Assembly: GCF_000938265.1 (NCBI RefSeq)
Contig: NZ_JYFC01000003.1
Coordinates: 1-64,000, forward strand
Reading direction: 5' to 3'
DNA: 64,000 bases
Source: Agreia bicolorata
GTDB taxonomy: Bacteria; Actinomycetota; Actinomycetes; Actinomycetales; Microbacteriaceae
This document shows positions 39,134 to 56,069 of the stretch, in pieces. Within the stretch, counting starts at the first letter, position 1. Every line of letters starts with the position of its first letter. The notes below the pieces were generated by a model. That model searched no databases. It had not been told where the DNA came from and was given only the letters and a program-made list of their open reading frames with translations. The translations under genes were made by a program, and so were the position numbers.

Positions 39134-39928
39134 ATGACCGCGACCATTTCGCTCCAGCTCTACACGGTTAAGGAGGCGCTCGCCGCCGATCCGGATGCGA
39201 CGCTCGGGAGGATCGCCGACATCGGATTCACTGCTGTCGAGCTCTTCGGCCTGCCGTACTTCGGCGATGCCTACGCGGCGGGGCTCGCGAAGCACGGCCT
39301 CACCGCGCCGAGCGCCCACGTGCCACTCGCGACCGGCGAGCTCGAGGCATCCTTCGATCTGGCCGAGAAACTGGGCGTGCACACGGTGATCGAGTCGTTC
39401 ACCCCGCCGACCCTCTGGGAGAGCGCCGACGAGATAGCCCGCCTCGCCGATCGTCTCAACTCGGCGGTCGAGCCCGCCGCCGCCCGCGGCATGCGCGTCG
39501 GCTACCACAACCACGACGGCGAGATCCGCAATCGTGTCGAGGGCGTCACGGGCCTCGACCACTTCGCGAGCCTGCTCGACCCCCGCGTCGTTCTCGAGGT
39601 CGACGCCTACTGGGTGGCCGCGGGAGGCGAGGACCTCGTCGAGTTCCTCACCCGCAACGCCGACCGCATCAAGTTCATCCACGTGAAAGACGGCTCGCTC
39701 ACCGGCGACCTGCCCAATCAGGTGCCCGCCGGCCACATCTCGGGCGAGGCGCCTGAGCACCTCTCGAGCCAGCTTCCCGCAGGTCGGGGCGTCGTGCCTC
39801 TCGCCGCCGGCCTCGATGCGGTTGCCGACCTCGAGTTCGCCGTGGTCGAGTTCGATGTCTACTCTGGCGACATCTTCGAGGGCATCGCCGAAGCCAGACA
39901 GTTCCTCGTCGAGAGGGGGCTCCGCTGA
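39134..39928 (+). CDS. sugar phosphate isomerase/epimerase-like TIM-barrel protein
   Basis: This 264-residue protein belongs to the AP_endonuc_2/xylose-isomerase-like TIM-barrel family. Visible metal-site segments are GYHNHDGEI, LEVDAYWVAAGG, FIHVKDGS and a C-terminal VVEFDVYSGD. Members isomerise, epimerise, dehydrate or cleave sugars, including 3-keto-glycosides. It has a GAGGAG site and is followed by a Gfo/Idh dehydrogenase with a one-base overlap (TGATG). The pairing of this fold with a Gfo/Idh oxidoreductase is a hallmark of keto-sugar and inositol-type pathways. Substrate unknown. Confidence 0.87.
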   Translation: MTATISLQLYTVKEALAADPDATLGRIADIGFTAVELFGLPYFGDAYAAGLAKHGLTAPSAHVPLATGELEASFDLAEKLGVHTVIESFTPPTLWESADEIARLADRLNSAVEPAAARGMRVGYHNHDGEIRNRVEGVTGLDHFASLLDPRVVLEVDAYWVAAGGEDLVEFLTRNADRIKFIHVKDGSLTGDLPNQVPAGHISGEAPEHLSSQLPAGRGVVPLAAGLDAVADLEFAVVEFDVYSGDIFEGIAEARQFLVERGLR

Positions 39929-41049
39929 TGAGCACCACCACCTACAGCCCGGTCGGTTCCGGCCCCGTCGGCATCGGCATCATCGGCGCCGGCGCGATCA
40001 GCGACCAGTACCTCTCGAACCTCACGACATTCCCCGACGTGCGCGTCGTGATGATCGGCGATCTGGATGTCGCACGCGCCGCGCAGCAGGCCGAGAAATA
40101 CGGCGTGCCGCGTTCCGGACGCGCCGACGAGGTACTGAAAGACGACGACGTCGAGATCGTGATCAACCTCACGATTCCGGCGGTGCACGCCGAGCTCTCC
40201 TCCGCAGCGCTCACCGCCGGAAAGCACGTGTGGAGCGAGAAGCCGATCAGTCTCGACCGCGAGAGCGGACAGGCGCTGCTCGACCAGGCATCGGCATCCG
40301 GCCTTCGCATCGGCGTCGCGCCTGACACGATCCTCGGACCGGGCGTGCAGAGCGCGTTGCGCGCGATCGCTCGCGGCGACATCGGCCGACCGCTCACCGC
40401 GATGACCGCATTCCAGGGACCCGGACCCGAGTCGTGGCACCCGAACCCCGACTTCTTCTTCGTTCCCGGCGCCGGACCGCTGTTCGACATGGGGCCGTAC
40501 TACCTCACGACGCTGGCCTGCATCTTCGGCTCGTTCACCGAGGTCGCCGCGATCGGCTCGCGCGCGCGAGACATCCGGGTCATCGGATCGGGCCCCCGCG
40601 CCGGAACCGAGCTGCCCGTGACCGTGAACACCCAGATGAGCGCGCTCGCCCGCTTCGAGGGTGGCGAATCGTCGCAGAGCATCTTCAGCTTCGACTCCCC
40701 GCTGCGGCGTTCGGGCTTCGTTGAGATCACCGGCGAGACCGGAACGCTCGTGCTGCCCGACCCGAACATGTTCGAGGGAGTGAGCACGCTCGTGCGCGGC
40801 GAGGAGAGCGTCGAGCTGGCCGAGACCGGATTCGCCGGCGGCCGCGGATCGGCCGTGTTGGAGATGGCCAGGGCCATCCGGTCTGGTGGCGCCGACCTGC
40901 TGCCGGCCGAGCTGGGCTACCACGTGCTCGACGTGATGACCGCGATGGAGGAGTCGTCGGAGGCCGGCCAGTTCGTGCGCGTCGAAAGCAAGGCCCCTGC
41001 ATCCCCGGTCCTCCCGGAGTCCTGGAACCCGACCACACGCACCCTGTAG
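39928..41049 (+). CDS. Gfo/Idh/MocA-family oxidoreductase
   Basis: The 373-residue protein has the N-terminal Rossmann motif VGIGIIGAGAISDQYLSNL, the catalytic lysine in HVWSEKPISLDRES and a C-terminal domain with GPLFDMGPYYLTTLA, where the Asp and the following residues line the substrate site. It probably oxidises or reduces a sugar hydroxyl using NAD(P). Translation is coupled to the upstream TIM-barrel gene. It faces the minus-strand oxidoreductase/importer operon across a strong hairpin. The two Gfo/Idh proteins in the window are only distantly alike. Confidence 0.9.
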   Translation: MSTTTYSPVGSGPVGIGIIGAGAISDQYLSNLTTFPDVRVVMIGDLDVARAAQQAEKYGVPRSGRADEVLKDDDVEIVINLTIPAVHAELSSAALTAGKHVWSEKPISLDRESGQALLDQASASGLRIGVAPDTILGPGVQSALRAIARGDIGRPLTAMTAFQGPGPESWHPNPDFFFVPGAGPLFDMGPYYLTTLACIFGSFTEVAAIGSRARDIRVIGSGPRAGTELPVTVNTQMSALARFEGGESSQSIFSFDSPLRRSGFVEITGETGTLVLPDPNMFEGVSTLVRGEESVELAETGFAGGRGSAVLEMARAIRSGGADLLPAELGYHVLDVMTAMEESSEAGQFVRVESKAPASPVLPESWNPTTRTL

Positions 41050-41054
41050 CGCGC

Positions 41055-41120
41055 ATCCGCGCCACCTCGGCGCATCCGCCCCCGTTCGACCAGGAGCGGA
41101 TGCGCCGAAAGGGCGCGGAT
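41055..41120. repeat. nested inverted repeat, interspersed family copy 1
   Basis: TCGGCGCATCCGC (41067-41079) pairs exactly with 41096-41108, and an outer ATCCGCGCC (41055-41063) pairs with GGCGCGGAT (41112-41120). The element lies between convergent genes and can act as a two-way terminator. A closely similar sequence lies after rhaI at 52533-52590, sharing the core CTCGGCGCATCCGCC and a TCGACC-containing loop, so this is a dispersed repeat rather than a simple terminator. Confidence 0.8.
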
Positions 41121-41129
41121 ACCGACGCG

Positions 41130-42086
41130 TCAGGCCGGGATGGTGGCCTCCAGCCAGGCGCGACTGGCCTGCGCGCTCGCGAACGGCTCCATGCTGGCGC
41201 GGTCGACCTCGATGATGATCCAGCCTCCGAAGCCGTCGGGCAGGGCAGAGAGGATGCCGTCGAGGTCCATTCCGCCGAGCCCCGGCTCGAGGAACAGCCC
41301 CTGGTCGGTGGCATCGCGGTACGACGTGGCCGTCGCCCGGCTGGCAGCGGCCACGTCGAGGTCAAGGTCTTTGATGTGCAGATCCACCAGACGATCCGAG
41401 TACTTGGTCAGGGTCGCGACCGGGTCGATGCCCGCCCACGCGAGGTGCCCGACATCGAACGACGCACCCAGCAGATCCGGCGAGATGGCCGAAAGCACCC
41501 GGTCGATCTCGTGTTCCGTCTCGACCCAGGTGCCCACGTGGTTGTGCAGACCAGCTCTGATGCCTTCCGAGGCGAGCACGCTCGCTGCCTCGCCGAGCAC
41601 GTCGATCACCCGGTCGAGCCGGCCCTCGTCGAAGACTGCACCGACGGCCACGGATTCGAGCGTGCGCACCGTGCCGGGAGCCCACGACACCTCGGGAGCC
41701 AGAAACACCGACGACAGCCCGAAGAAGTTCGACTCCTCCGCCTTGCGGCGCACGCCATCGAACCAGCGCACGAACGAAGCGCTACCCGGCGCCAGAGAAA
41801 CCCCGTGGTCCTCCGGCAACGCCACCGAGCAGTACCCGGGGGCTACGCGAAGGCCCGTCTCACGCAGCATGCGGGCGTAGTTCTGCAGCGTCTGCGTGTC
41901 GAGCACCTCCATCATGGTCGCGTCGAAGCCCGAGCGGCGCACCTGCGCCAGCACATCCGGGTACTGCTCCCGAAAGCTCGGCTCGGCGAAGAGCCAGAGG
42001 TCATCGCTGGTCGGGTCCGCCGGGTCGGCCTTGATGTTGATCCACTGAATAGGGTTGAGCGCGAACTGCGAGCGGCTGAGCGTCAT
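41130..42086 (-). CDS. sugar phosphate isomerase/epimerase-like TIM-barrel protein
   Basis: The 318-residue protein has the TIM-barrel isomerase/epimerase fold with metal-site blocks SSVFLAPEVSW, RAGLHNHVGTWVETE, GASFDVGHLAWAG, VDLHIKDLDLD and a C-terminal GGWIIIEVD. It is longer than the 264-residue homologue on the opposite strand. A CAGGAGAAG site precedes the ATG. It is the last gene of a minus-strand operon that also encodes a sugar importer, ROK regulator, GMC-type oxidase and deaminase. It may isomerise or cleave the keto-sugar made by the oxidase; this is inference. Confidence 0.87.
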   Translation of the reverse strand: MTLSRSQFALNPIQWINIKADPADPTSDDLWLFAEPSFREQYPDVLAQVRRSGFDATMMEVLDTQTLQNYARMLRETGLRVAPGYCSVALPEDHGVSLAPGSASFVRWFDGVRRKAEESNFFGLSSVFLAPEVSWAPGTVRTLESVAVGAVFDEGRLDRVIDVLGEAASVLASEGIRAGLHNHVGTWVETEHEIDRVLSAISPDLLGASFDVGHLAWAGIDPVATLTKYSDRLVDLHIKDLDLDVAAASRATATSYRDATDQGLFLEPGLGGMDLDGILSALPDGFGGWIIIEVDRASMEPFASAQASRAWLEATIPA

Positions 42087-42122
42087 GGTCTTCTCCTGAA
42101 ATGTAAGTAAAGCCGGATGCCG

Positions 42123-42734
42123 TCACTCGGCCGCGCGGGCGTTGTACACGACCGCGCCACCCGCATCCACGTGCTCGCGGTAGTCGCGGAACACCGCGAG
42201 GGCCTCGTCGCGGGTCACGTCTTGCACAACGGCGATACCGCGCGCTTCGAACTGCGGAGCCCAGTCGTCGCGCATCGGACCCTCGTCGAACGTCGTGATC
42301 TCCTCGAGCTCGGGCCCATCGCCGGCGACGACGAGCGTGCGCACTCCCGACCACAGCGTCGCGCCGTAGCACTGCACGCACGGGCGCCAGTTCACGACCA
42401 GCTCATGCGCGGGCTGTCCTTCGCCGCCGAGGTCCCAGGATCCGATGCGCGTCTGCGCGAGCCCGAGGGCGGTGACCTCCGCGTGCGCCGACGAGACCCC
42501 GCTCTTCAGCACCACGTTCACGCCCACCGACACGATCTTGCCGGTGGCCGACTCGACCACGATCGCGGCGAACGGTCCCCCGCTGCCCTCTCTGAAGTTG
42601 CGGGCGGCGAGCCGGTGCACGAGCCGCATGCGCTCCTCATAGCTGCCGAGCGCATCCGGCACGTCGGCGAGCTCGTCGGCGATCCAGTCGGGCAGCTCGA
42701 TCGAATACGAGGTGGCCAGGGTGTCGATGTTCAT
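42123..42734 (-). CDS. nucleoside/guanine-deaminase-like zinc deaminase
   Basis: This 203-residue protein carries the cytidine-deaminase-fold zinc motif: HAEVTALG (His and catalytic Glu) and WRPCVQCYGA (the two Cys ligands), with GPFAAIVVESATGKIVSVGVN before it. The overall pattern is nearest to guanine or other purine/pyrimidine base deaminases. The ATG at 42732-42734 has an AAAGGAC site; the frame runs on upstream without similarity. It is placed between the GMC oxidase and the TIM-barrel gene of a sugar operon, which is unusual. It might deaminate a nitrogenous aglycone or an enamine intermediate. Confidence 0.82.
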   Translation of the reverse strand: MNIDTLATSYSIELPDWIADELADVPDALGSYEERMRLVHRLAARNFREGSGGPFAAIVVESATGKIVSVGVNVVLKSGVSSAHAEVTALGLAQTRIGSWDLGGEGQPAHELVVNWRPCVQCYGATLWSGVRTLVVAGDGPELEEITTFDEGPMRDDWAPQFEARGIAVVQDVTRDEALAVFRDYREHVDAGGAVVYNARAAE

Positions 42735-42774
42735 TGTTGTCCTTTCGTAAGACGAATCGGATGCGCGGGGCCGG

Positions 42775-44298
42775 TCAGGCGGTCGGCACACGAAGGCGGG
42801 CGACGGCTCGCGCCGCGCGCACCGCGGTGATGACGCCCGTGAGCGTGGCGTTGCCGATGACCGGCGTCGGGATGACCCCGTTGCCGGCCAGATAGAGGCC
42901 GTCGACGCCCCAGACCTTGCCATCCGGGTCGCAGACGCTCGTGCCGTCATCGGTCACACCCATGCGCACCGTGCCGGTCTGGTGCAGCGACGATCCTGCG
43001 GCGAGCACCGCCGACTCGGTCTCGGGGTCGAACGCGCCGAAGCGGCGGGCGATGAGCCCGGTCGTCTCCGACGCACGTTCGATGAGGGCGCGGTCTGTAT
43101 CGGTGTAGTCGAACTCCACGGTGATGCGCGGCATCCCCATAACGTCGGTCTCCGACTCCGAGAAGACGAGTCCGTTCTCTGCTCGCGACTCCACCGGTGT
43201 GTAGAGCGAAACACCCACCGAGTACGCGAGCGCATTGTCGTGATCGTCGACGTAGACCGTATTCATGATCTGCCCGTGGAAGGGCTGAGCGGCCCCGTTC
43301 TGCGGCAGCCACAGCGAATCTGTGGCGAACTCGCCCTCGAGCATTCGCGGAAGATCGTCAAGGGTGAGCCCGAAGCGCTCGAGATCCATCAAGACCCGGC
43401 TCGTGACGAATGCGTGCTCGTTGAGGTAGCGTCCGAGCGCGGCCGGGCGAATTCCTGATGCGAACAGCAATTGGGGGGTGCGGATCACGTCGGCGCAGAC
43501 GACCGTGACCGACGCCTCGATGTCGTACTCGTCACCTGATCCGATGTCACGCACCCGCGCACCGGTCGCACGACCGCCGTCGTGCAGCACGGCCGTGGCG
43601 AGCGTTCCCGCCCGCAGCTCGAATGCGTCGTCACCACCCTCGGAGATCGGGGGGAAGATGCGGCTCGGTCCGGTGCGCGGCAGGGGCCCGGATGCGCCGG
43701 GCTCCACGGCCATCGGCATGGCCTGCGGGCGCCGGTCATCCGGCCCGGACGCACCGAACAGCTCATCGAGAACCTCGAGAACGACACGCCCAGGCACGGT
43801 CGGCCCCAGCACGCTCGGGTGCACGCCGAGCAGCTCGCGTGCACGATCGAGATCCGCCTGCCACTGCTCGGCGTCGCCGAGGTCGAAGGTCTCGTCGCCG
43901 GCGGGCCAGGGCGTGGCCGCGGTCCAGTGCACGCCCATCCCGCCGACGTTCCACGCGAGCGCGCTGGCCGGCATCGCGGTCGCGTCTTCGCCGAGGGCCG
44001 ACAGGTTGTACATGCCAGGCTCGACAGAGCGCAGCTCGTCGGTGATGTCGGGAGTCACATTGGCTCCGGTGTACATGCCCTGGATGCCCGACGCGACCCT
44101 CTGGTTGTACCGCTCCCAGATGGCGGGTTCGGGGCTGTCGTGCAGGTGAAGGCCGGGCACTCCTCCCACGGGCGGTGCCCCGTCGATCATCAGGATGCGT
44201 GCCGCGGGGTCGGCCTCGCGCAGCAGCCTGGCCACCGAGGCTCCCATGATTCCGCTGCCGACGATGAGGATATCGGGGGCGTTCTGCGAGTCAGACAT
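42775..44298 (-). CDS. GMC-family flavoprotein, pyranose-oxidase/glycoside-3-oxidase-like
   Basis: This 507-residue protein has the FAD-binding motif DILIVGSGIMGASVARLL at its N-terminus. WNVGGMGVHWTAATP follows, in which His124 lines up with the His of fungal pyranose 2-oxidase (S-T-H-W-T) that binds FAD covalently. The C-terminal active-site pair is His439 in SSLHQTGTVRMG and Asn483 in PTPVIGNATLT, also as in pyranose oxidase. The family includes bacterial C-glycoside 3-oxidases known from Microbacterium and Arthrobacter relatives. It probably oxidises a sugar or glycoside to a keto-sugar. AGGAG precedes the ATG, which lies 8 bp inside the ROK gene end. No signal peptide. Confidence 0.88.
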   Translation of the reverse strand: MSDSQNAPDILIVGSGIMGASVARLLREADPAARILMIDGAPPVGGVPGLHLHDSPEPAIWERYNQRVASGIQGMYTGANVTPDITDELRSVEPGMYNLSALGEDATAMPASALAWNVGGMGVHWTAATPWPAGDETFDLGDAEQWQADLDRARELLGVHPSVLGPTVPGRVVLEVLDELFGASGPDDRRPQAMPMAVEPGASGPLPRTGPSRIFPPISEGGDDAFELRAGTLATAVLHDGGRATGARVRDIGSGDEYDIEASVTVVCADVIRTPQLLFASGIRPAALGRYLNEHAFVTSRVLMDLERFGLTLDDLPRMLEGEFATDSLWLPQNGAAQPFHGQIMNTVYVDDHDNALAYSVGVSLYTPVESRAENGLVFSESETDVMGMPRITVEFDYTDTDRALIERASETTGLIARRFGAFDPETESAVLAAGSSLHQTGTVRMGVTDDGTSVCDPDGKVWGVDGLYLAGNGVIPTPVIGNATLTGVITAVRAARAVARLRVPTA

Positions 44299-45445
44299 TC
44301 AAAGCTCCTGGTTCATATGTTGAGACGGTCGGACCGAAGAACTCCGCGTCCATACGATCGAGCACGAGCTTGACCGCTCCGAGCAGGGGCGCATCCGAGC
44401 CGATCGTCGTGGCACGCACATCGATCGACAGAGCTCCGAGCGCCTCCAGCGCAGCGGTCACGCGAGGCAGCAGCACATCGCCGGCCACCTCGAGCCCTCC
44501 GCCGAGCACGATCATCTCCGGCGCGATCGTCCATGCCAGCGACGACAGCAGCCGGGCGACATCGTTTGCGAAGTCGTCGAGCAGCACGAGCGCTTCGGCA
44601 TCGCCGGTCCGCGCTCGTTCCACGAGAGCCGCGGCCTCACGACGCTCGGCCACGAGCGGCGAGGTCAGGAGGCCGAACGGCTGATACTCCATGCGCGACG
44701 CGTCGAGAACTCCGGCCTCCACGATCTCGCCCGCTGCCCCTCGAAATCCACGGTGCACATCGCCCTTGATAACGATGCCGACACCGGTGCGGTTGCCGAG
44801 GATGCACCACGCGAACGTGCTCGTCTGCTGAGCGGCCCCGCGCCAATGCTCGGCGAGAGCGGCCAGGTTGGCGTCGTTGTCGGCGAACATCGGAATGCCG
44901 AGATGCGCTCCGAGTTCGTCGGCGAGGGCGAATCCGTTCCATGCGGGCGCGTTGATGAGACGGTGCACCACACCGTCTTCATCGATAGCGCCACCGGATG
45001 CGACGGCCCCGGCGCGCACCCGGTCGCGGGGCATGCCCGACTCGCGAATCGCCGCATCCACCGCCTCGACGGCGTCGAGCATCGTCTGGCCGGTGTCGGA
45101 GTAGTCGTGCAGTGTGAGCAGCCCTCGTCCGAGCACACGGCCCCGGATGTCGGAGACGGCCGCGCTGGCAGCATGCGTATCGATACGCACAGCCACCACA
45201 AGAGATCGGTCGGCCTCGAACGCGAAGAAGCGCGGAGGCCGACCGACGTCGACGTGCACGGGTGTCACCTCGACGGCCCAACCGCTCTCACAGAGTCGGC
45301 CGAGAATGAGTTCGACGGTGCGCCTCGACAGCGCGACCTGCGCGACAAGGGTGGCCATCGTGACGGGTTCGTCATGTTCTGCGAGAGCGCGCAGCACCAC
45401 AGACGTGTTCAATCGGCGCATCGCGCTCGGGTCGAGTCCAGGCAT
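44291..45445 (-). CDS. ROK-family transcriptional regulator
   Basis: The 384-residue protein has an N-terminal winged helix (SAMRRLNTSVVLRALAEHDEPVTMATLVAQVALSRRTVELILGRL) and a ROK domain (about 80-370). AGGAGEIVEAG-like sequence is present as GAAGEIVEAGVLD, but the usual CxCGxxGCxE zinc-binding motif is missing. It is therefore a regulator, not a sugar kinase, and of a zinc-less subtype. It sits between the importer and oxidase genes of the same operon and probably regulates them in response to the imported sugar. ATG 45443-45445 chosen; the frame stays open upstream without similarity. Confidence 0.87.
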   Translation of the reverse strand: MPGLDPSAMRRLNTSVVLRALAEHDEPVTMATLVAQVALSRRTVELILGRLCESGWAVEVTPVHVDVGRPPRFFAFEADRSLVVAVRIDTHAASAAVSDIRGRVLGRGLLTLHDYSDTGQTMLDAVEAVDAAIRESGMPRDRVRAGAVASGGAIDEDGVVHRLINAPAWNGFALADELGAHLGIPMFADNDANLAALAEHWRGAAQQTSTFAWCILGNRTGVGIVIKGDVHRGFRGAAGEIVEAGVLDASRMEYQPFGLLTSPLVAERREAAALVERARTGDAEALVLLDDFANDVARLLSSLAWTIAPEMIVLGGGLEVAGDVLLPRVTAALEALGALSIDVRATTIGSDAPLLGAVKLVLDRMDAEFFGPTVSTYEPGALNV

Positions 45446-45523
45446 ACGTTCACTCTCGCAGACGGCTGTCGAGGAGCGGCAGCACCGGGTCGTACGCACC
45501 CTCGACCAGGGCCACCGGGGCCA

Positions 45524-46348
45524 TCACTTGAGTCCCGTTGCGACGATTCCCTGCACGAAGTAGCGCTGCAGGAACAGGAACAGCACGAGCACCGGCAGCA
45601 TAACGACGACCGCGCCGGCAAGAACGAGGCCGTAGTCCTTCACGTTCCCGGCGGCCTGGCTCATGGCCGCGAGGCCGACGGGCAGGGTGTAGCTGTCGGC
45701 GCTCTGGGCCACGATGAGCGGCCAGATGAAGTTGTTCCACGATGCGAGGAACGACATGATCGTGACCGTCGCCACAGCCGGGCCCGCGAGCGGCAGGAAG
45801 ATCTGAAAGAAGATGCGGATCTCGCTGGCGCCGTCGATGCGGGCGGCCTCGAGCAACTCGTCGGGGATACCGGCGGCGAACTGCCTCATGATGAAGATCG
45901 AGATCGGCAGCACGAGGCTGGGCAGGGCGATGCCCGCGAGGGTGTCGACGAGGCCGAGTTGCACGGTCACCACGAACTGGGGAACGAAGGTGGCCGAGAA
46001 GGGCACCATCAAGGCGATCAGCACAGCCGCGAACGCGATGCGCTTGCCGCGGAACTCCAGCTTGGCCAGTGCGAAGCCGGCCATGGATGCCGCGATGATG
46101 TTGCCGATCACGATGACGACCGCCACAACGATGCTGTTGCTCAGAAAGGTGCTGAAGCCGTTCTTCGAGAAGAGCCTCACGAAGTTGTCGAACGTCGCCT
46201 GTGTCGGCAGCCACGCGCCGGGGTTCGCCAGAATGTCGCCGGTCGTTCGCAGCGATCCGGAGATCACCCAGACGAAGGGCAGCACCGTGATGATCACAAG
46301 AACGATGAGTGCTGTGTAGAGCACGGTGGGGCGCAGACGTCCGGTCAT
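45524..46348 (-). CDS. carbohydrate ABC importer permease (MalG type)
   Basis: The 274-residue membrane protein has six predicted transmembrane helices and the BPD_transp_1 coupling loop EAARIDGASEIRIFFQIFLPLAGPA. The N-terminal LPFVWVISGSLRT and the NFIWPLIVAQ segment are typical of MalG/LacG/UgpE-like CUT1 permeases. It forms the channel with the MalF-type protein encoded just upstream, whose stop overlaps this ATG by 4 bp. No ATPase gene is present nearby, so a shared MsiK-type ATPase encoded elsewhere is likely. Confidence 0.93.
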   Translation of the reverse strand: MTGRLRPTVLYTALIVLVIITVLPFVWVISGSLRTTGDILANPGAWLPTQATFDNFVRLFSKNGFSTFLSNSIVVAVVIVIGNIIAASMAGFALAKLEFRGKRIAFAAVLIALMVPFSATFVPQFVVTVQLGLVDTLAGIALPSLVLPISIFIMRQFAAGIPDELLEAARIDGASEIRIFFQIFLPLAGPAVATVTIMSFLASWNNFIWPLIVAQSADSYTLPVGLAAMSQAAGNVKDYGLVLAGAVVVMLPVLVLFLFLQRYFVQGIVATGLK

Positions 46349-47262
46349 GAGCGGCTCCTCAGCAGACGGAATTGGAGGGCGCTCACGGCAGCCACGATGA
46401 TCAGCAAGATGAACGACGCTGCGGAGGAAATGCCGAAGTTGCCGAAGCCGAACTGGTGGTAGGTGAACAGCGCCATCGACTCTGTTGAACCGAGCGGGCC
46501 GCCGTTGGTGAGCAGATAGGGCTCGTCGAACACCTGCAGAAAGAAGACCGACAGCAGAACCGAGACCAGCAGCGTCGTGGGCATGATGAGCGGAATCGTG
46601 ATCGACCAGAGCCGCCGCCAGGGGCCGGCTCCGTCGAGGGCCGCGGCCTCCTTCACATCTTCCGGCACAGACTGGAGCCCGGCCAGGAACAGGAGCATGG
46701 CCGTGCCGAAGTTGCGCCAGATGCCGAGCAGAAGCACCACGGGCATCGCGAGATTCTCATCGCCCAGCCAGTTGGGGCCGGCAAAACCGAGGTTCGCCAG
46801 CACCTCGTTGACCGTGCCGTTCTGGTTGAACGCGTACTGCCAAATGAGGGCGACCGACACGATGTTCGTAACGACCGGCGCGTAGAACAGGCCACGGAAG
46901 ACCGACCTGAAACGCCGGATGCCGTTGTTCAGCACGAGCGCCAGCGCGAAACCGATGACCATGGTCACGGGCACGCCGACCACAACGAAAATCAGGGTGT
47001 TGAGAATAGCCCTGACGAAGTTCGGATCGGAGAGCAGCGAGACGTAGTTCTCGAGGCCGGAGAAATCGACGCCGAACGGCGTCTGCAGATCTGCACTCTT
47101 CATGTCGGTGAGGCTGATGGCCAGCGACGAGATGATCGGGATCGCCGTGAAGACGACGAAGATCACCGCGAAGGGTGCGAGGAAAAGCCACGCTATCCCG
47201 GTGTGCGGGGGGCGCCGCCGCGTGAGCGGCGCCCCCGTCTTTGCCTGCAGGGCGAATGCCAT
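46345..47262 (-). CDS. carbohydrate ABC importer permease (MalF type)
   Basis: The 305-residue membrane protein begins with a cytoplasmic tail and GIAWLFLAPFAVIFVVFTAIPI. It has six or seven helices and carries the coupling loop EAAALDGAGPWRRLWSITIPLIMPT. This is the CUT1 MalF/UgpA pattern. It lies 4 bp after the binding-protein gene and overlaps the MalG-type gene by 4 bp, so the three genes form one transport cassette for a sugar or sugar derivative. Confidence 0.93.
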   Translation of the reverse strand: MAFALQAKTGAPLTRRRPPHTGIAWLFLAPFAVIFVVFTAIPIISSLAISLTDMKSADLQTPFGVDFSGLENYVSLLSDPNFVRAILNTLIFVVVGVPVTMVIGFALALVLNNGIRRFRSVFRGLFYAPVVTNIVSVALIWQYAFNQNGTVNEVLANLGFAGPNWLGDENLAMPVVLLLGIWRNFGTAMLLFLAGLQSVPEDVKEAAALDGAGPWRRLWSITIPLIMPTTLLVSVLLSVFFLQVFDEPYLLTNGGPLGSTESMALFTYHQFGFGNFGISSAASFILLIIVAAVSALQFRLLRSRS

Positions 47263-47266
47263 GAGA

Positions 47267-48574
47267 TCAGTCCGAGCCCGTTCCGATGCTGTCGGCCTGC
47301 TTCTGGGCGTTGGCCATGGCCTCCGCCGCAGTCTCCTTGCCGCGGGCCACCTGCTCCAGCTCCTTGCCGAGCATCGTCGACACCTCGTTCCAGGTGCTGG
47401 CGGCAGGCATCGGCTTGACGTTCTTCATCTGCTCGAGGAACGGTGCGAGCAGGGGCTGGTCGGCGATGGACGAGTCGCTCCACGCGTCGACGACCGCGGG
47501 CAGGCTGCCCGCCGCCTTGTACTGAGCGACCTGCGTGTCTTTCTCGGCCATGAACTTGATCGTCTTCCACGCGGCATCCGAATTCTTGGATTTTGCGGTG
47601 ACGCCCCAGCTACCGCCGGCGAGTTGGCCGACGCTTCCATCGGGCCCGGCCGGAAGAACTGCGGTCTTGATGTGAGCCGCGGTCCAGCCGGGTTCGGCGG
47701 CGGTCGTGTCGAGAGTGGCGATCACCCACGGTCCACTGATCATCGATCCGGTTTTGCCGGAGACGAGGTACGGCTGGGCGTCGAGGAACTGCGGGGTGTC
47801 GGGTGACGAGACGCCCGATGAGAAGAAGGATGCGTTGAACTCAGCCGCCTTCACCATGCCGGGGGTATCGAGCGCCCACGACTTTCCGTCGGCACTGAGC
47901 AGGGACTCGCCTGCCTGGTAGCCGAAGATCGCGAGGTTCTGGCCGTTGTAGGTGTCCCATCCGACGTCAGCACCGTAGCCGCTCTCGGCGCCGCCCTCCT
48001 GGAGCTTCTTGAAGAAGGGAATCGTCTCGTCCCACGTGGTGGGCGCGGTGGCTCCGGCATTCTGCGCGAAGTCGTCGCGGTAGATGAGCAGTCGCGTGTA
48101 TGCGTACCACGGCACCGAATAGGCCGTGCCGTCGACCTCGCCGGCGGCCCACGAACCCTTGAAGAACGACGACGAATCGGCAACGCCGTCGGGAACGGGT
48201 GCGAAGGCGTTCGATGCGAGGAACTGGGTCTGCGCTTCGGTGTAGAGGAAGGCGACGTCGGGGGCGGTTCCCGAGGCGATAGCGGTCTGCAGCTTGGTGT
48301 TGTAGTCGTCGCTGGGCACGAGGGTCACTTCGACGTCGACATCGGGGTTGTCGCTCTCAAACGGAGCGAGAACCTTGTCGAGGGCAGTGGCGTCGCCGTC
48401 GGGCGCCCACAGGGTGACCTTCCCGCTGGCCTTGCTGTCGTCGATGCTGCCGGCGGCCTGGGGTGCGGCACCGTCGCTGGAGCGACCGCATCCGGTGGCG
48501 ATGATCGCTGTCGCTGCGAGGATCGCAGCGAGTGGAATGAGGCGGGAGCGCCTCAGTGCAGGGCGGGTCTTCAT
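47267..48574 (-). CDS. extracellular sugar-binding lipoprotein (SBP_bac_1)
   Basis: This 435-residue protein has a lipoprotein signal peptide with lipobox ATGC (Cys29), then a low-complexity linker and a family 1 solute-binding domain. Typical segments are KVTLWAPDGDATALDKVLAPFESDNPDVDVEV, YNTKLQTAIASGTAPDVAFLY, YSVPWYAYTRLLIYRDDF and MISGPWVIATLD. It captures the sugar outside the cell for the MalF/MalG-type permeases. ATG at 48572-48574 with a GAGGAG site 7 nt upstream; the frame continues upstream without meaning. It heads the minus-strand operon and is divergent from the alditol oxidase gene. Confidence 0.93.
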   Translation of the reverse strand: MKTRPALRRSRLIPLAAILAATAIIATGCGRSSDGAAPQAAGSIDDSKASGKVTLWAPDGDATALDKVLAPFESDNPDVDVEVTLVPSDDYNTKLQTAIASGTAPDVAFLYTEAQTQFLASNAFAPVPDGVADSSSFFKGSWAAGEVDGTAYSVPWYAYTRLLIYRDDFAQNAGATAPTTWDETIPFFKKLQEGGAESGYGADVGWDTYNGQNLAIFGYQAGESLLSADGKSWALDTPGMVKAAEFNASFFSSGVSSPDTPQFLDAQPYLVSGKTGSMISGPWVIATLDTTAAEPGWTAAHIKTAVLPAGPDGSVGQLAGGSWGVTAKSKNSDAAWKTIKFMAEKDTQVAQYKAAGSLPAVVDAWSDSSIADQPLLAPFLEQMKNVKPMPAASTWNEVSTMLGKELEQVARGKETAAEAMANAQKQADSIGTGSD

Positions 48575-48799
48575 GGGTGGCTCCTCGGGATGTCGGTGGG
48601 ACTGTGGCGGGAACTGGTGCTGGATTCGAATTATGCTACTTAGTTGCAAAATTGGCCAGAAAAAAGTTACTGGCGTCGTGGAACAGGAGTTGCAGAACGT
48701 CAGAATATGGGACTCGTGTTTCGGCACGATTAAGCGTGCGCGTCGGCGGTGTAACGTCACTCACATTGCGCAATCAGACCATCAACGAAGAAGGACCCC
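48575..48799. promoter_or_regulatory. importer/alditol-oxidase divergent promoter region
   Basis: This 225-bp gap is distinctly AT-richer in its centre (about 48624-48672). It contains two short palindromes, ATTCGAAT (48624-48631) near the importer side and ATTGCGCAAT (48765-48774) next to the oxidase gene. These are candidate sites for the ROK or LacI regulators encoded nearby. No certain -35/-10 pair can be assigned. Confidence 0.4.
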
Positions 48800-50062
48800 G
48801 TGAGCCACGACTCCGAGCTGAACTGGGCGGGCACGCTCGAATACGGCGCCGCCGACATCATCGACGCCACCACGATCGACGAGGTCTCCTCCCTCGTCGC
48901 CGGCGCGAAACGCATCCGTGCCCTGGGAACACGGCACTCGTTCAGCGACATCGCCGACACCAACGCCCTGCTCGTAACGGTCACCGGCATCGAGCCCGAC
49001 TTCGTGCTCGACGAGGATGCCCGCACCGTGACGGTCGGTGCGGGAACGCGCTACGGCATCCTGGCCCGCTTTCTCGAAGACCACGGCTGGGCGCTGCACA
49101 ACATGGGCTCGCTGCCGCACATCTCGATCGCAGGAGCCATCGCAACCGGAACGCACGGCTCGGGCAATGGCAACGGAGTGCTCTCGACGGCCATCTCCGC
49201 CCTCGAGCTCGTCGTCGCCGACGGCTCGCGCCGGGTCATTCGCCGCGGCGAGCCCGGCTTCGATGGCGTGGTCGTGGGTCTCGGGGCGTTCGGTGTCGTC
49301 GTTCGGGTGACCCTCGACATCCAGCCGTCTTTTCAGGTTCGGCAGGATGTCTACCGAGGCCTGCCCTGGGACGTTCTGCTCGACGACCTCGAGGGCGTCA
49401 CAAGCCTGGGTTACAGCGTGAGCGTGTTCACCGACTGGGTCGAGGAGACGATCGCGAACTTCTGGGTGAAGACGCGCATGGATGCCGGCACCGAGGTCGT
49501 CGACGAATGGCGCGGGGCCAAACGCGACATCGTGTCGGCCGGCGCGCTCTGGGAGACCTCGGACGACAATCTCAACGAGCAGGGCGGTGTCGTGGGGCCG
49601 TGGCTCGAACGACTTCCGCACTTCCGGCTCGACCGCATTCCGTCGAACGGCGACGAGATCCAGACCGAGTACTTCGTTCCGCGGTCGCAGGGCGGCGACG
49701 CCCTTCGGGCACTCCGGGCACTCGGCCCGAAGATCGCGCCGCACCTTATGATCACCGAGCTGCGCACCGCGGCCGCGGACGATCTCTGGCTGAGCATGGC
49801 CTATCAGCGGGACTCGCTGATCATCCACTTCACCTGGAAGAACGAGCCCGAGGCCGTTCTCGCGCTCCTGCCGCAGATCGAGGAGGCGCTCGCGCCGTTC
49901 GAGGCGCGACCGCACTGGGGCAAGCTCAACACGGTGGATGCCGCGACTCTGGCTCGCCTGTATCCGCGCCTCCCCGAGTTCCGGGCTCTGGCCGCGGAGT
50001 GGGACCCGACGGGCGCGTTCCGCAACGCCTACCTCAACAGGCTCATCTTCACGGGCGAGTAG
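48800..50062 (+). CDS. alditol oxidase (AldO/xylitol oxidase type, FAD-linked)
   Basis: This 420-residue protein matches Streptomyces coelicolor AldO in length and architecture. An FAD_binding_4 domain carries IRALGTRHSFSDIAD, with His46 at the position covalently bound to FAD in AldO, and HISIAGAIATGTHGSGNGNG. A C-terminal ALO-type domain ends with RPHWGKLNTV. AldO oxidises sugar alcohols such as xylitol and sorbitol at C1 to aldoses, releasing hydrogen peroxide. GTG start behind GAAGGA. It is divergent from the sugar importer and convergent with the LacI gene, with a large nested inverted repeat after it. Confidence 0.9.
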   Translation: MSHDSELNWAGTLEYGAADIIDATTIDEVSSLVAGAKRIRALGTRHSFSDIADTNALLVTVTGIEPDFVLDEDARTVTVGAGTRYGILARFLEDHGWALHNMGSLPHISIAGAIATGTHGSGNGNGVLSTAISALELVVADGSRRVIRRGEPGFDGVVVGLGAFGVVVRVTLDIQPSFQVRQDVYRGLPWDVLLDDLEGVTSLGYSVSVFTDWVEETIANFWVKTRMDAGTEVVDEWRGAKRDIVSAGALWETSDDNLNEQGGVVGPWLERLPHFRLDRIPSNGDEIQTEYFVPRSQGGDALRALRALGPKIAPHLMITELRTAAADDLWLSMAYQRDSLIIHFTWKNEPEAVLALLPQIEEALAPFEARPHWGKLNTVDAATLARLYPRLPEFRALAAEWDPTGAFRNAYLNRLIFTGE

Positions 50063-50237: not shown

Positions 50238-51248
50238 TCAGGCCTGCGTCGACGCGCGCACCACAAGCTCGGGCTGGAAGACGACATGCCTCGGTGGCGA
50301 GGACGGGTCCTGCACCTCAGCGAGCAGAATCTCGACCGCAGTCTTTCCGATCAGCGCGCTCGGTTGCCGAATAGACGACAGCGGCACCACGGCGGCGCTG
50401 GCAAAGTCGATGTCGTCGTAGCCGATGAGAGCGATCTGCCCGGGAACAGCCACGTCGGCCCCCTGCATCGCGAACGCCTGCAGCAGTCCCATCGAGACGA
50501 GGTCGTTCGCCGCGAAGATCGCGTCGGGCCGCAGGGCCGGCGCTCGCCCAACGATGTCGGCTCCCGCCGCTCGGCCCGCCAGAACGCTCAGCGCGTCGAT
50601 CTCGATGACCTCGAGCGAGACATCCGGATGCGCCGCGACGGCCGCGCGGGCGCCCTCGAGTCGGTCGGCCACCTGGCGGATGCCCATGGGCCCGCCCACG
50701 AAGGCGAGCCGACGTCGCCCGAGCGAGATGAGGTGGTCGACGGCGAGCCTGCCACCGGCGAGATCGTCGACCGACACCGAGCTGAACTCACCGTCGGGGC
50801 TCGACCTGTCGACGAGCACGGCGGGGATGCCGCGCTGTTTGAGCCGGATGAGTCGTTCGGTGATGTCGGCGTAGGCAGAGATGACCATGCCGTAGACGCG
50901 CTGCTGCTCGAACAGGTCGAGATAGGTGGCCTCACGAGCCGGGTTCTCGTCGCTGTTGCCGAGGGTCACCATAAGCCCTGAGCCGGCGGCCTCATCTTCG
51001 GCCCCGCGCGCCAGATCGGTGAAGAACGGGTTGCGCACGTCGAGGACCACCATGCCGATGGTGCGACTGCGTCCGTTGCGCAGCTGCCTGGCGGCGTCGT
51101 TGCGAATGAAGCCGAGTTCGTCGATGGCCCGCTGCACCCGTTCGACCGCGGACGGCGACACCTTCTCTGGATGGTTCAACACGTTTGAGACCGTGCCGAC
51201 GGAGACGCCGGCACGCAGGGCGACATCCCGAACGCTCGACGCTGACAT
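50238..51248 (-). CDS. LacI-family repressor next to rhaI
   Basis: This 336-residue protein has a LacI helix-turn-helix (SVRDVALRAGVSVGTVSNVLNHPEKVSPSAVERVQRAI), a hinge (NDAARQLRNGRSRTIG) and the sugar-binding domain (VLDVRNPFFTDLARGAED, FAANDLVSMGLLQAF, GYDDIDFASAAVVPLSSIRQP). The ATG at 51246-51248 is preceded by a G-rich site. It is divergent from the L-rhamnose isomerase gene, and the gap holds two TGAATC-type palindromes that are probably its operators. It most likely represses rhaI and itself. Confidence 0.92.
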   Translation of the reverse strand: MSASSVRDVALRAGVSVGTVSNVLNHPEKVSPSAVERVQRAIDELGFIRNDAARQLRNGRSRTIGMVVLDVRNPFFTDLARGAEDEAAGSGLMVTLGNSDENPAREATYLDLFEQQRVYGMVISAYADITERLIRLKQRGIPAVLVDRSSPDGEFSSVSVDDLAGGRLAVDHLISLGRRRLAFVGGPMGIRQVADRLEGARAAVAAHPDVSLEVIEIDALSVLAGRAAGADIVGRAPALRPDAIFAANDLVSMGLLQAFAMQGADVAVPGQIALIGYDDIDFASAAVVPLSSIRQPSALIGKTAVEILLAEVQDPSSPPRHVVFQPELVVRASTQA

Positions 51249-51282
51249 GCACCCCACCCTACGGGCCAGCACCGCGGTCTTG

Positions 51283-51330
51283 TGAATCCATTCATCGTCA
51301 CCTAGCCTTGATCGTATTGAATCGATTCAA
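51283..51330. promoter_or_regulatory. two LacI operators upstream of rhaI
   Basis: TTGAATCGATTCAA (51317-51330) is a perfect 14-bp palindrome, and TGAATCCATTCA (51283-51294) matches its core with one central change. The centres are 35 bp apart in the 102-bp gap between the divergent LacI and rhaI genes. The form, an even palindrome with a central CG, is classic for LacI-family regulators. Confidence 0.75.
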
Positions 51331-51350
51331 AGAAGAACGGAATATTCCCT

Positions 51351-52514
51351 ATGGTGCAATTCAGCGACATCGCCACCCAGCTCGAGGGGCAGTCCATCGA
51401 ACTGCCCTCGTGGGCGTTCGGAAACTCGGGCACGCGATTCCGCGTCTTCGGCACCCCCGGAACCGCGCGCAACCCGGAAGAGAAGATCGCCGACGCTGCC
51501 CAGGTCAACAAGTACACGGGCCTGTCACCCAAGGTGGCCATCCACATTCCGTGGGACAAGGTCGACGACTACGCTGCCCTCGGCGCCTACGCCAACGACC
51601 TCGGCGTCGAGCTCGGAACGGTGAACTCGAACACCTTCCAAGATGAGGACTACAAGTTCGGCTCGCTCACCTCGTCGAACCCGGCCGTGCGCCAGAAGGC
51701 CATCGACCACCACTTCGAGTGCATCGACATCATGCATGCGACGGGCTCGAAAGACCTCAAGGTCTGGCTCGCAGACGGCACGAACTACCCAGGGCAAGAT
51801 GACATCCGCGGCCGTCAGGATCGCCTCGCCGAGTCGCTGCAGACGATCTATGACCGTATCGACGCCGAGCAGCGCCTCGTTCTCGAGTACAAGTTCTTCG
51901 AGCCGGCGTTCTATCACACCGATGTTCCCGACTGGGGAACTTCGTACGCCCAGGTCGCCGCGCTCGGAGAGCGCGCCCTGGTCTGCCTCGATACCGGCCA
52001 CCACGCTCCGGGCACCAACATCGAGTTCATCGTCGCCCAGCTGTTGCGCCTCGGAAAGCTCGGCTCGTTCGACTTCAACTCGCGCTTCTACGCCGACGAC
52101 GACCTGATCGTGGGCGCGGCCGACCCGTTCCAGCTGTTCCGGATCCTCTACGAGGTCATCCGCGGCGGCGGCTACGGACCCGACTCGGCCGTGGCCTTCA
52201 TGCTTGACCAGTGCCACAACATCGAGGCCAAGATCGCCGGCCAGATGCGCTCGGTGCTGAACGTGCAGGAGATGACCGCGCGTGCGTTGCTCGTAGACCG
52301 CGAGGCACTCACCGCAGCACAGGAGTCCACCGACGTTCTCGGTGCGAATGCGATCCTCATGGACGCCTTCTACACGGATGTCCGTGGCCCGCTGGCCGAG
52401 TGGCGCGAGTCTCGCGGTCTTCCGGCCGACCCGATCGCCGCTTTCCAGGCATCCGGTTACCAGGAGAAGATCTCGGCCGAGCGCGTCGGCGCCCAGGCCA
52501 GCTGGGGCGCGTAG
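51351..52514 (+). CDS. rhaI: L-rhamnose isomerase (RhaI type)
   Basis: This 387-residue TIM-barrel protein resembles the Pseudomonas stutzeri-type L-rhamnose isomerase family. Metal and substrate segments visible are VWLADGTNYPGQDD, LVLEYKFFEPAFYHTDVPDWGTS, VCLDTGHHAPGTNIE and GSFDFNSRFYADDDL. It converts L-rhamnose to L-rhamnulose, the first step of the phosphorylating pathway; the kinase and aldolase genes lie 5 kb downstream. It is under two LacI operators. ATG start with only a weak ribosome binding site. A repeat/hairpin element follows the stop. Confidence 0.92.
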   Translation: MVQFSDIATQLEGQSIELPSWAFGNSGTRFRVFGTPGTARNPEEKIADAAQVNKYTGLSPKVAIHIPWDKVDDYAALGAYANDLGVELGTVNSNTFQDEDYKFGSLTSSNPAVRQKAIDHHFECIDIMHATGSKDLKVWLADGTNYPGQDDIRGRQDRLAESLQTIYDRIDAEQRLVLEYKFFEPAFYHTDVPDWGTSYAQVAALGERALVCLDTGHHAPGTNIEFIVAQLLRLGKLGSFDFNSRFYADDDLIVGAADPFQLFRILYEVIRGGGYGPDSAVAFMLDQCHNIEAKIAGQMRSVLNVQEMTARALLVDREALTAAQESTDVLGANAILMDAFYTDVRGPLAEWRESRGLPADPIAAFQASGYQEKISAERVGAQASWGA

Positions 52515-52534
52515 CGACCCGCCGATCCCGCCGT

Positions 52535-52581
52535 ATCCGCGCCCGCTCGGCGCATCCGCCGCCCCTCGACCGGGCGCGGAT
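52535..52581. repeat. interspersed inverted repeat copy 2 (after rhaI)
   Basis: ATCCGCGCCCG (52535-52545) pairs exactly with CGGGCGCGGAT (52571-52581). The loop contains CTCGGCGCATCCGCC and a TCGACC block that are nearly identical to the element at 41055-41120. It lies 21 bp past the rhaI stop and probably ends that transcript. The rest of the 236-bp gap before the next gene shows no further feature. Confidence 0.75.
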
Positions 52582-52750
52582 GCACCGGGCGGGCGCGCTT
52601 GTGCGCCACGGGTCTTTCGAGTGTCGGGGGAATAGTGGAGAGTGGGGGCAGGTTCTCCCGACGAAGCGAATTCCGCGAGCCGTCGCTCTGCTCGCCTCCG
52701 CTCCCCCCTCACGCTTCTAAAGCAACACCGTCCTCAGCCCTGGAGTTCTC

Positions 52751-54286
52751 GTGACTGATCACCTCGCCCCGCCCACAGACTCCCTGCCGGCCGTCGCGGC
52801 GTCCACTCACCACGACGCACCCGGGTCGCCCTGGGCATCCGACCCTGCGCTCGCCGGGCGCAACCGTCTCGTCATTTCTTTGCTCCTCGTCTCGGCGTTC
52901 GTTGTGATCCTCAACGAGACGATCATGAGCGTGGCGCTGCCGGTGCTTATGAAAGACCTCGACATCGCCGCCGAGGCGGCCCAGTGGTTGACGACCGCGT
53001 TCATGCTCACGATGGCCGTGGTCATTCCGATCACAGGCTTCCTGCTGCAGAGGTTCAACACGCGTCCGGTCTTCCTCGCGGCGATGGCGCTCTTCAGTGC
53101 GGGCACGTTCATCTCGGCCATGGCGCCCGGTTTCGAGGTTCTGCTCGCGGGTCGCGTCATCCAAGCCAGCGGAACAGCCATCATGATGCCGCTGCTGATG
53201 ACCACCGTGCTCAACCTCGTGCCGCCCGCAACCCGCGGCCGCACGATGGGCAACATCTCGATCGTCATCTCGGTCGCGCCGGCGATCGGCCCCACGATCT
53301 CGGGCCTCATCCTCAGCGTGCTCGACTGGCGTTGGATGTTCTGGATCGTTCTGCCCATCGCCGTCGGTTCGCTGGTGCTCGGCTTCCTCAAGATTCCCAA
53401 CGTCACCGAACCGCGCAAGGCTCCCATCGACGTGTTCTCGGTCATCCTCTCTGCATTCGCCTTCGGCGGCCTGGTCTACGGGCTCAGTTCGATCGGCGGC
53501 CACGGAACCACCGAAGGCGGCATGCCCGGCTGGCTGCCGCTCGTCGTGGGCGTCGTCGCCCTGGCCGCGTTCATTCTGCGTCAGGTCATGCTGGCCCGCC
53601 GAGAGAAGGCGCTGCTCGACCTCCGGGTCTTCCGCTCGTCGACATTCTCGGTGGCCATCGCCATGCTCGCGATCAGCATGATGGCCCTCTTCGGCACCCT
53701 CATCATCCTGCCGCTGTATACGCAGAACGTTCTTGGGCTCAACACCCTGTCGACGGGCCTGCTGCTGCTTCCCGGTGGACTGCTGATGGGCGTTCTGGCT
53801 CCGTTCGTCGGCCGCATCTACGATCGCTTCGGCCCTCGGGTGCTGCTGATTCCGGGCTCGATCATCGTGAGCGCCGCGTTCTGGGGCATGACCCTCTTCA
53901 CCGCCACCACAGGGTGGGGCTGGGTACTCGCCGCCCACGTCACCATGAGCCTTGGCCTCGCGCTGCTCTTCACGCCGCTGTTCACCGCGGGGCTCGCATC
54001 TCTCACCCCGAAGCTCTACTCACACGGCAGCGCCGTGGTGGGCACGGTGCAGCAGCTCGCCGGTGCGGCAGGAACCGCGCTGTTCGTCTCGGTCATGTCA
54101 GCCCAGGCGATCGCTCTCTCGGGCGGCGGCACTCCGAGCGCGGTCGACACGGCCGGTGGAATCCACGTGGCCATCATGTACGGCGCGTTCATCTCGCTCG
54201 CCGCGATCGCGATCTCGTTCTTCGTCAAGGCACCCGCGCAGCCGTCCGCCGAGGGCGCGCACGACGCGATGCCCGCCGGCCACTAG
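52751..54286 (+). CDS. MFS multidrug efflux transporter (DHA2, EmrB/QacA type)
   Basis: This 511-residue protein has about 14 transmembrane helices. DHA2 signatures include LNETIMSVALPVLMKDLDIAAEAAQWLTTAFMLTMAVVIPITGFL, the motif C-like VAPAIGPTISGLIL and the GRIYDRFGPRVLL loop. It is a proton-driven exporter of amphiphilic compounds. GTG start behind GGAG. It lies between the rhaI gene and the rest of the rhamnose cluster and has no obvious link to rhamnose use. Confidence 0.9.
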   Translation: MTDHLAPPTDSLPAVAASTHHDAPGSPWASDPALAGRNRLVISLLLVSAFVVILNETIMSVALPVLMKDLDIAAEAAQWLTTAFMLTMAVVIPITGFLLQRFNTRPVFLAAMALFSAGTFISAMAPGFEVLLAGRVIQASGTAIMMPLLMTTVLNLVPPATRGRTMGNISIVISVAPAIGPTISGLILSVLDWRWMFWIVLPIAVGSLVLGFLKIPNVTEPRKAPIDVFSVILSAFAFGGLVYGLSSIGGHGTTEGGMPGWLPLVVGVVALAAFILRQVMLARREKALLDLRVFRSSTFSVAIAMLAISMMALFGTLIILPLYTQNVLGLNTLSTGLLLLPGGLLMGVLAPFVGRIYDRFGPRVLLIPGSIIVSAAFWGMTLFTATTGWGWVLAAHVTMSLGLALLFTPLFTAGLASLTPKLYSHGSAVVGTVQQLAGAAGTALFVSVMSAQAIALSGGGTPSAVDTAGGIHVAIMYGAFISLAAIAISFFVKAPAQPSAEGAHDAMPAGH

Positions 54287-54302
54287 GCGTCACCGCTGCG
54301 CC

Positions 54303-54338
54303 CTCGACTGGCCCGAGAAATTCGGCGGATCAGTCGAG
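54303..54338 (+). terminator. hairpin after the efflux gene
   Basis: CTCGACTG (54303-54310) pairs with CAGTCGAG (54331-54338), 16 bp after the MFS stop. It is a plausible terminator for that gene. The long gap that follows (54339-54843) has no convincing intact gene, only the further hairpins listed below and a possible gene remnant. Confidence 0.45.
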
Positions 54339-54508
54339 TGTCGGTCGCGGCGAGAGCAGTCAGGCTCGACCACCGGATCCAGAAGTCCAAAACCCTCTTG
54401 TCTCGGTGCAAGTAGAAGAAAACAGGCCGCTTCGGTTCACAATGGCTTTGTGGATCAGCCGTGCGGCTCACGTTGCGTAAGCACCCTCTTCCTTGGCTCG
54501 CTAGAAAA

Positions 54509-54772: not shown

Positions 54773-54789
54773 AGACGAGGCAACGATTC

Positions 54790-56049: not shown

Positions 56050-56069
56050 GCGCACCTCCCTCTCACCAC

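Follow-up and report, generated by a model that had tools for sequence, protein, structure and literature searches.

The gene cassette treated here, from Agreia bicolorata, has its closest described relatives in several oxidative systems. Clusters that combine the oxidases CarA or PsG3Ox, clade IV of the pyranose oxidase/C-glycoside oxidase (POx/CGOx) group, with the C-deglycosidase CarB/CarC perform an oxidation followed by a cleavage. The residues R94 and Q297 of PsG3Ox have been linked to the anchoring of bulky substrates (PMC10646112). ScPOx from Streptomyces canus, a clade III member, has been studied as isolated enzyme. Its published activities are 7.35 U/mg for puerarin and 0.045 U/mg for glucose, and monosaccharides were not regarded as natural substrates by its authors. 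A sequence of oxidation, elimination, hydration and reduction is described for the catabolism of levoglucosan or phlorizin (PMC7676230, PMC10628242).

The cassette lies on the minus strand at 41130-48574 of a window of 64,000 nucleotides (assembly GCF_000938265.1, contig NZ_JYFC01000003.1, positions 1 to 64,000 of the forward strand). The source genome comprises 3.92 Mb in 20 contigs. Within 39134-50062, an open reading frame list and profile searches yielded ten intact frames (Table 1), and their families are those named in an earlier note made from the sequence alone; the CUT1 importer, the ROK regulator, the zinc deaminase, the Gfo/Idh dehydrogenase and the alditol oxidase are all present. 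Two further features, an esterase relic and an operator-like palindrome, had not been reported in that note. The parts of the cassette are of known kinds. What appears new is the combination of a ScPOx-type oxidase with a guanine-type deaminase, which was not found in the open-access literature searched. We know of no oxidative route for glucosides of guanine-like heterocycles with a dedicated deaminase. The word 'deaminase' is absent from the main texts of the POx/CGOx papers checked, and the listed open-access matches on vicine, 3-keto nucleosides and pyranose oxidase operons hold nothing on this operon.

The minus-strand block has been conserved as a unit, made up of CUT1 importer, ROK regulator, oxidase, deaminase and a TIM-barrel protein, TIM2. 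Its conservation was followed in 73 loci of a species-genome collection, retrieved by peptide patterns of the window oxidase and hence a set of close relatives, not a census. One locus (L075) had no usable oxidase match and was dropped, leaving 72. Neighbors were counted within 9 kb of the oxidase at 40% identity or more, cassette genes also on the same strand. The ROK regulator is present in 68/72 loci, the binding protein and permease 1 of the importer in 66/72 each, permease 2 in 67/72, and the deaminase in 62/72. A carboxylesterase gene is located between permease 2 and the ROK gene in 38 loci; both cassette esterases scanned (n = 2) matched Pfam COesterase. TIM2 occurs in 20 loci. The cassette context is kept in four actinobacterial families, the Microbacteriaceae, Promicromonosporaceae, Streptomycetaceae and Streptosporangiaceae. 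Loci of Streptomyces and Nonomuraea contain the deaminase and no TIM2 at 40% identity. Because of this differing spread, deaminase and TIM2 are separable, and oxidase, ROK regulator and importer form the core. The window oxidase is 87-88% identical to that of two Agreia genomes. Rathayibacter sp. Leaf185 harbors two more oxidase paralogues of about 50% identity (L204, L205), and no deaminase was found in the 18 kb around either of them.

Upstream of the binding protein gene, a palindrome (TTTTGCAACTAAGTAGCATAATT) is located on the minus strand at 48629-48651; on the plus strand, this site is matched again at 48631-48653. A Streptomyces form (TTTCGCTACAAGTTCCGAAATTATTCG) occurs once per genome in 4 Streptomyces genomes. 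One form or the other is present in 58/63 upstream regions of the binding protein. Over 1.49 Mb of locus DNA, the Streptomyces-type pattern matched 49 times and was present in 48 upstream regions; the Agreia-type pattern, with 34 matches and 10 upstream regions, has a lower specificity. Shuffled window sequences gave an expectation of 0 matches. At up to three mismatches, neither a second site in the own 3.92 Mb genome nor further regulon sites in this genome or the 4 Streptomyces genomes were detected. The ROK protein may bind the putative operator.

The earlier description of the oxidase as similar to pyranose and C-glycoside oxidases holds: tree and residues assign it to POx/CGOx clade III (ScPOx type), not to clade IV. 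The nearest solved relatives are 8qve (40% identity), MtCarA (7dve, 37%) and PsG3Ox (7qf8, 36%). In a tree of 51 of 84 sequences, thinned for Streptomyces, the window protein and Streptomyces proteins including that of S. canus form one branch (100/100), separate from MtCarA, PsG3Ox and 8qve. The oxidase of the S. canus cassette is 64% identical to the window protein. The catalytic pair H439/N483, the residues Q343 and T126 and the motif H124-W125-T126 are retained. In place of R94 and Q297 of PsG3Ox, the window oxidase has E93 and F297, the latter present in 39/39 members of the ScPOx-type branch, and the PsG3Ox substrate loop ASPVPLADD is shortened. Read from a TTG start, the oxidase of S. 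canus DSM 40017 (L029/L191) has His438, Asn482 and a loop M344-P355, the same numbering as printed for ScPOx (PMC9659204, section 2.4). No other oxidase match was found in this genome at E<=1e-10. Identity to MtCarA is 34.6%, and the printed ScPOx value is 34.3%. By residue numbering and identity figures, the protein is probably ScPOx (UniProt A0A117Q443). ScPOx and the window oxidase thus seem to share branch, His-Asn pair and short loop; the former is known as isolated enzyme, the latter from its operon context.

The deaminase, a component that had made the gene set unfamiliar to the earlier note, is the most informative part of the cassette. It is predicted to be a guanine-type deaminase of the cytidine deaminase (CDA) fold, with NE0047 as best solved relative. 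NE0047 is called a guanine deaminase (GDA) in the literature (PMC9739398). Its positions N66, H77, E79, C112, C115 and E143, representing zinc, proton shuttle and two substrate positions, are identical in 63/63 oxidase-linked rows (the window gene counted twice), and the HAE and PCxxC motifs are kept. The two proteins have in common the fold family, the zinc and the two substrate positions; unlike NE0047, the window deaminase is kept in a sugar-oxidase operon. The own genome also encodes a guanine deaminase of the amidohydrolase type over the cut-off (414.8 vs 375.4 bits), so the operon enzyme need not be the housekeeping copy. The amidohydrolase type is over the cut-off in Rathayibacter sp. 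Leaf185 as well. A deaminase tree was built from 127 of 153 rows after identical strings had been dropped, with the window gene kept twice (WINDOW, L076). In it, the oxidase-linked deaminases nest within a wider group of solitary Microbacteriaceae genes; the label 'solitary' in short loci rests on flanks of 1.5 kb. Mapped on the oxidase tree, the deaminase distribution requires three changes, possibly a single gain plus two losses. A second deaminase copy (76% identity) is present in a Rathayibacter genome (G440; L147, approximately 8667-10589), where a carboxylesterase of 46% identity lies at a distance of about 2 kb and no oxidase is nearby.

TIM2 resembles dehydratases. Among the structure-search matches listed, its model (predicted local distance difference test, pLDDT, 88.8) is nearest to IolE (3cny; Z 31.3, root-mean-square deviation (rmsd) 2.8, 287 aligned), followed by a fold family at Z 25.7 and by the glucal hydratase AtHYD and the lyase AL1 at Z 22.9. 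The IolE family model gave a match (E<=1e-5) to each of the 20 TIM2 members scanned. The earlier note had linked both TIM barrels of the region to keto-sugar isomerization or cleavage, as a hypothesis. The nearest folds of the other one, TIM1, agree with this; TIM2 is nearest by fold to an inositol enzyme, which partly realizes an outcome that the note had named as speaking against its idea, yet it stays far under the cut-off of the IolE myo-inosose dehydratase model TIGR04379 (122.8 vs 290 bits). A dehydratase-like protein beside a keto group would fit an elimination from, or a hydration of, a keto-sugar.

The cassette is probably a catabolic operon under its ROK protein. The CUT1 importer would bring in a glucoside, and the flavin adenine dinucleotide (FAD)-dependent oxidase would oxidize the sugar ring, most likely at C3. 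Oxidation of glucosides is documented for ScPOx; the steps beyond it are ones that we infer. The aglycone may leave by beta-elimination, helped by TIM2 where this is present, and in Streptomyces the elimination could be spontaneous or catalyzed by an unlinked enzyme. The deaminase would remove an amino group from the aglycone or the intact glucoside. Since a guanine-type deaminase belongs to the operon, the substrate most likely contains an amino-oxo pyrimidine or purine-like ring. Acylated forms are suggested by the carboxylesterase of many relatives, of which this strain has only a relic. Candidates are vicine-like amino-pyrimidine glucosides, pterin glucosides and purine N-glucosides. A good leaving group, such as a heteroaryl or N-linked base, would make sense of the lack of a linked eliminase in Streptomyces. 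A self-contained glucoside operon with C3 oxidation, beta-elimination of the aglycone and deamination of a guanine-like ring is the reading preferred here, tentatively and with somewhat less than even confidence. The broader proposal, that 'C-glycoside oxidases' of the ScPOx type natively are the first enzymes in stripping glucose from glucosides of guanine-like heterocycles, with a dedicated deaminase, is rather doubtful. This oxidase branch was named for C-glycosides accepted in vitro, and the genome context offers a testable clue to the natural substrate. If the proposal is true, the range of compounds that bacteria of soil and leaves open without hydrolysis, through oxidation plus elimination, would widen to N-heterocycle glucosides.

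Several observations weigh against the preferred reading. The deaminase was not found in 10/72 oxidase loci, from Agromyces (5), Subtercola (2), Frondihabitans, Microbacterium indicum and Saccharopolyspora; 7 of the 10 have TIM2. The six residues shared with NE0047 are also identical in 63/63 deaminase rows without oxidase linkage. The oxidase-linked deaminases do not form one clade: the tree contains 5 label changes, at least three of them forced by well-supported branches. No conserved neighbors of the solitary deaminases were detected, as clustering returned the deaminase itself and two antisense shadows. Owing to the solitary relatives, the shared residues and the lack of one clade, the enzyme could be a general guanine deaminase carried along. 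Another guanine deaminase is over the cut-off in 2/9 cassette genomes; matches in the other 7 are weaker, with Streptomyces below the cut-off. Nitrogen in the aglycone is not a necessity, given that ScPOx acts on C-glucosides free of it, and the equation of the S. canus oxidase with A0A117Q443 does not come from the deposited sequence. In Streptomyces, no elimination enzyme can be assigned because the cassettes lack TIM2 and five Streptomyces and Nonomuraea genomes contain only 27-38% matches to it elsewhere. The natural substrate is itself a deduction from gene content.

A possible although somewhat unlikely alternative is the degradation of plant O- or C-glucosides that contain no nitrogen, for example puerarin-like flavonoids, with a general guanine deaminase co-transcribed without a role in the pathway. 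The preference of ScPOx for puerarin over glucose fits this explanation, as does the occurrence of same-family deaminases in 49/398 Microbacteriaceae genomes sampled, many of them solitary. The presence of the deaminase beside the oxidase in 62/72 loci, including those of Streptomyces, Nonomuraea and Promicromonosporaceae, argues against a passenger, and the anchors of PsG3Ox for bulky substrates, R94 and Q297, are not kept. The search for the C-deglycosidase beta subunit (PF19906) gave no match in the own genome at E<=10 and matches in 0/8 further cassette genomes at E<=0.01. As positive controls, 3/3 genomes whose oxidases fall on or close to the MtCarA/PsG3Ox branch contain PF19906, each with 4 matches over the cut-off and one with a fifth under it; the listed matches are all on the oxidase contig. 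Because of this difference between 0/9 and 3/3, the ScPOx type does not travel with C-deglycosidase in the genomes searched, and a C-glycoside route, which the earlier note had considered, is weakened. In comparison to the CarA/PsG3Ox clusters, with an oxidase of 36-37% identity, no PF19906 was found in the cassette genomes, R94/Q297 are not kept, the loop is shorter and a deaminase is added. The three genomes of L206-L210 have two oxidase genes each and 4-5 PF19906 matches on the same contig, which suggests multi-substrate clusters.

The earlier note had combined all genes of the region in one pathway. In such a pathway, oxidase, both TIM barrels, Gfo/Idh protein, deaminase, ROK regulator and alditol oxidase would together accomplish oxidation, elimination, hydration and reduction. 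The four-step logic has precedents, and the chemistry of the levoglucosan pathway (lgdA-B1-B2-C) could apply to the cassette; its first oxidation is ascribed to a dehydrogenase dependent on nicotinamide adenine dinucleotide (NAD), whereas the cassette has a flavin oxidase. TIM1 looks like a 3-keto-glucoside lyase, a candidate assignment from fold and residues, and adjoins the Gfo/Idh gene. Its model (pLDDT 94.5) is nearest, among the matches listed, to the 3-keto-beta-glucopyranoside-1,2-lyases AL1 (8tcd; Z 27.1, rmsd 2.1, 235 aligned) and BT1 (8tct; Z 26.6), ahead of two uncharacterized Parabacteroides proteins, the isomerase Art22 (24.6) and IolE (23.6). The best PDB match by sequence is AtOGE (8bvk, 7.5e-14), with a fold similarity of Z 23.0 (rmsd 2.1, 206 aligned, 28% identity). 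The metal and catalytic residues H132, H134, D163 and H189 of AtOGE correspond to H125, H127, D157 and H183 of TIM1, invariant in 19 rows; E233 corresponds to E239 by position only. TIM1 thus shares the fold of AL1, BT1 and AtOGE and keeps the AtOGE residues, and differs from them in that its activity is a prediction and that it occurs near the cassette oxidase in Agreia loci only.

The adjacency of the cassette to TIM1 and Gfo/Idh is kept in the window and in the loci L003 and L004, and in this strain the operator-like site, flanked by the divergently oriented genes for importer and alditol oxidase, could influence the two of them. The neighbor counts are opposed to a single pathway. TIM1 and Gfo/Idh are each near the oxidase in 2/72 loci, both from Agreia, and the alditol oxidase was found in 0/72 at the limits given above. 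In L003 and L004 the importer is still preceded by the palindrome, with no alditol oxidase next to it, and no operator-like site was found near TIM1. TIM1 homologues were detected in 149/299 Microbacteriaceae genomes. Among the 30 loci with the best TIM1 matches, to which the count was limited and which include the window, 26 have an adjoining Gfo/Idh gene. In two genomes of the same genus, G583 and G472, TIM1, Gfo/Idh and alditol oxidase are retained, the cassette is missing and no deaminase match was obtained. The three genes are head to tail in G583, the last two about 170 bases apart. In G472, the sole gene between Gfo/Idh and alditol oxidase is a carboxylesterase (L242, 11826-13217). This arrangement mirrors the window: an esterase without the cassette in the one, the cassette with an esterase relic only in the other. 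The alignment of window and G472 stops at 41123 and restarts at 48776, save for 39 bases of the relic, and the whole cassette occupies the Gfo/Idh-alditol oxidase junction in reverse orientation. The relic (LVEGAYDPVLPLL) matches the C-terminus of the G472 esterase over 13 residues with one difference. The simplest history looks like one in which the cassette inserted into a TIM1-Gfo/Idh-alditol oxidase operon that was there before; the cassette esterase would have been lost later in this strain, leaving its C-terminal relic between permease 2 and the ROK gene. Membership in the cassette was rejected for the alditol oxidase (0/72 loci, same-genus genomes without the cassette) and for TIM1-Gfo/Idh (2/72 loci, separate in same-genus genomes). 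The one-pathway explanation is accordingly improbable. Of the two converging operons proposed earlier, the layout stands and the grouping does not: the minus-strand block is a unit, and TIM1-Gfo/Idh is a separate, common pair. The neighborhood is conserved for this block. The proposal of oxidation followed by elimination gains from the ScPOx-type oxidase, the lyase-like TIM1 and the conserved block; its C-glycoside variant is weakened and its original gene grouping is not supported.

In 3'-keto nucleosides, the sugar-base bond breaks by itself after oxidation, and CUT1 importers usually carry sugars. A nutrition or detoxification route for a nucleoside-like or hexopyranosyl-nucleoside natural product, in which the sugar-base bond would be destabilized by oxidation and the base would undergo deamination, would agree with the guanine-type deaminase and with the Streptomyces cassettes that lack TIM2, but is quite improbable in view of the importer type and of the near inactivity of ScPOx on ribose (0.003 U/mg, in a published activity table that does not list nucleosides).

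Table 1. Features of the region with the glucoside cassette; positions refer to the window.
Feature	Position	Strand	Basis
TIM1, candidate 3-keto-glucoside lyase, neighbor outside the cassette	39134-39928	+	fold and residues
Gfo/Idh oxidoreductase, partner of TIM1, neighbor outside the cassette	39928-41049	+	GFO_IDH_MocA 5.4e-18
TIM2, IolE-like TIM barrel	41130-42086	-	TIGR04379 2e-35, under curated cut-off
Predicted CDA-fold guanine-type deaminase	42123-42734	-	PDB 2g84 (NE0047) 4e-39
GMC-family FAD sugar oxidase, ScPOx type	42775-44298	-	TIGR02462 7.6e-41, under model cut-off
ROK-family regulator	44291-45445	-	ROK 6.9e-30
Putative relic of a deleted type-B carboxylesterase gene (C-terminal end)	45450-45509	-	sequence match to L242
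CUT1 permease 2	45524-46348	-	BPD_transp_1
CUT1 permease 1	46345-47262	-	BPD_transp_1
CUT1 solute-binding protein	47267-48574	-	SBP_bac_1 2.6e-32
Palindromic operator-like site upstream of the importer	48629-48653	unstranded	cross-locus comparison
Alditol oxidase	48800-50062	+	PDB xylitol oxidase 2vfr 1.3e-106

RNA-family and tRNA scans found no RNA families or tRNAs. The absence of an ordinary glycosidase, as claimed before, applies to 39134-50062, and the same window contains three glycosidase genes in a row (GH1-GH3-GH1, glycoside hydrolase families) at 24239-28990, about 10 kb away. On the other side, genes for L-rhamnose catabolism are located at 50238-61117, with an EmrB-type major facilitator superfamily (MFS) gene and a LacI-type regulator among them. 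The L-rhamnose isomerase (634 bits) and a bifunctional rhamnulose-1-phosphate aldolase/dehydrogenase are over their cut-offs, and a rhamnulokinase-like kinase is under its cut-off. A GC-rich palindromic intergenic repeat is present in two copies, at 41055-41120 and 52538-52597 (arms of 33 and 22 nt), the first of which sits at the Gfo/Idh-side edge of the cassette. It is probably a repeated terminator-like element, and similar stretches occur in L003, L004 and L242.

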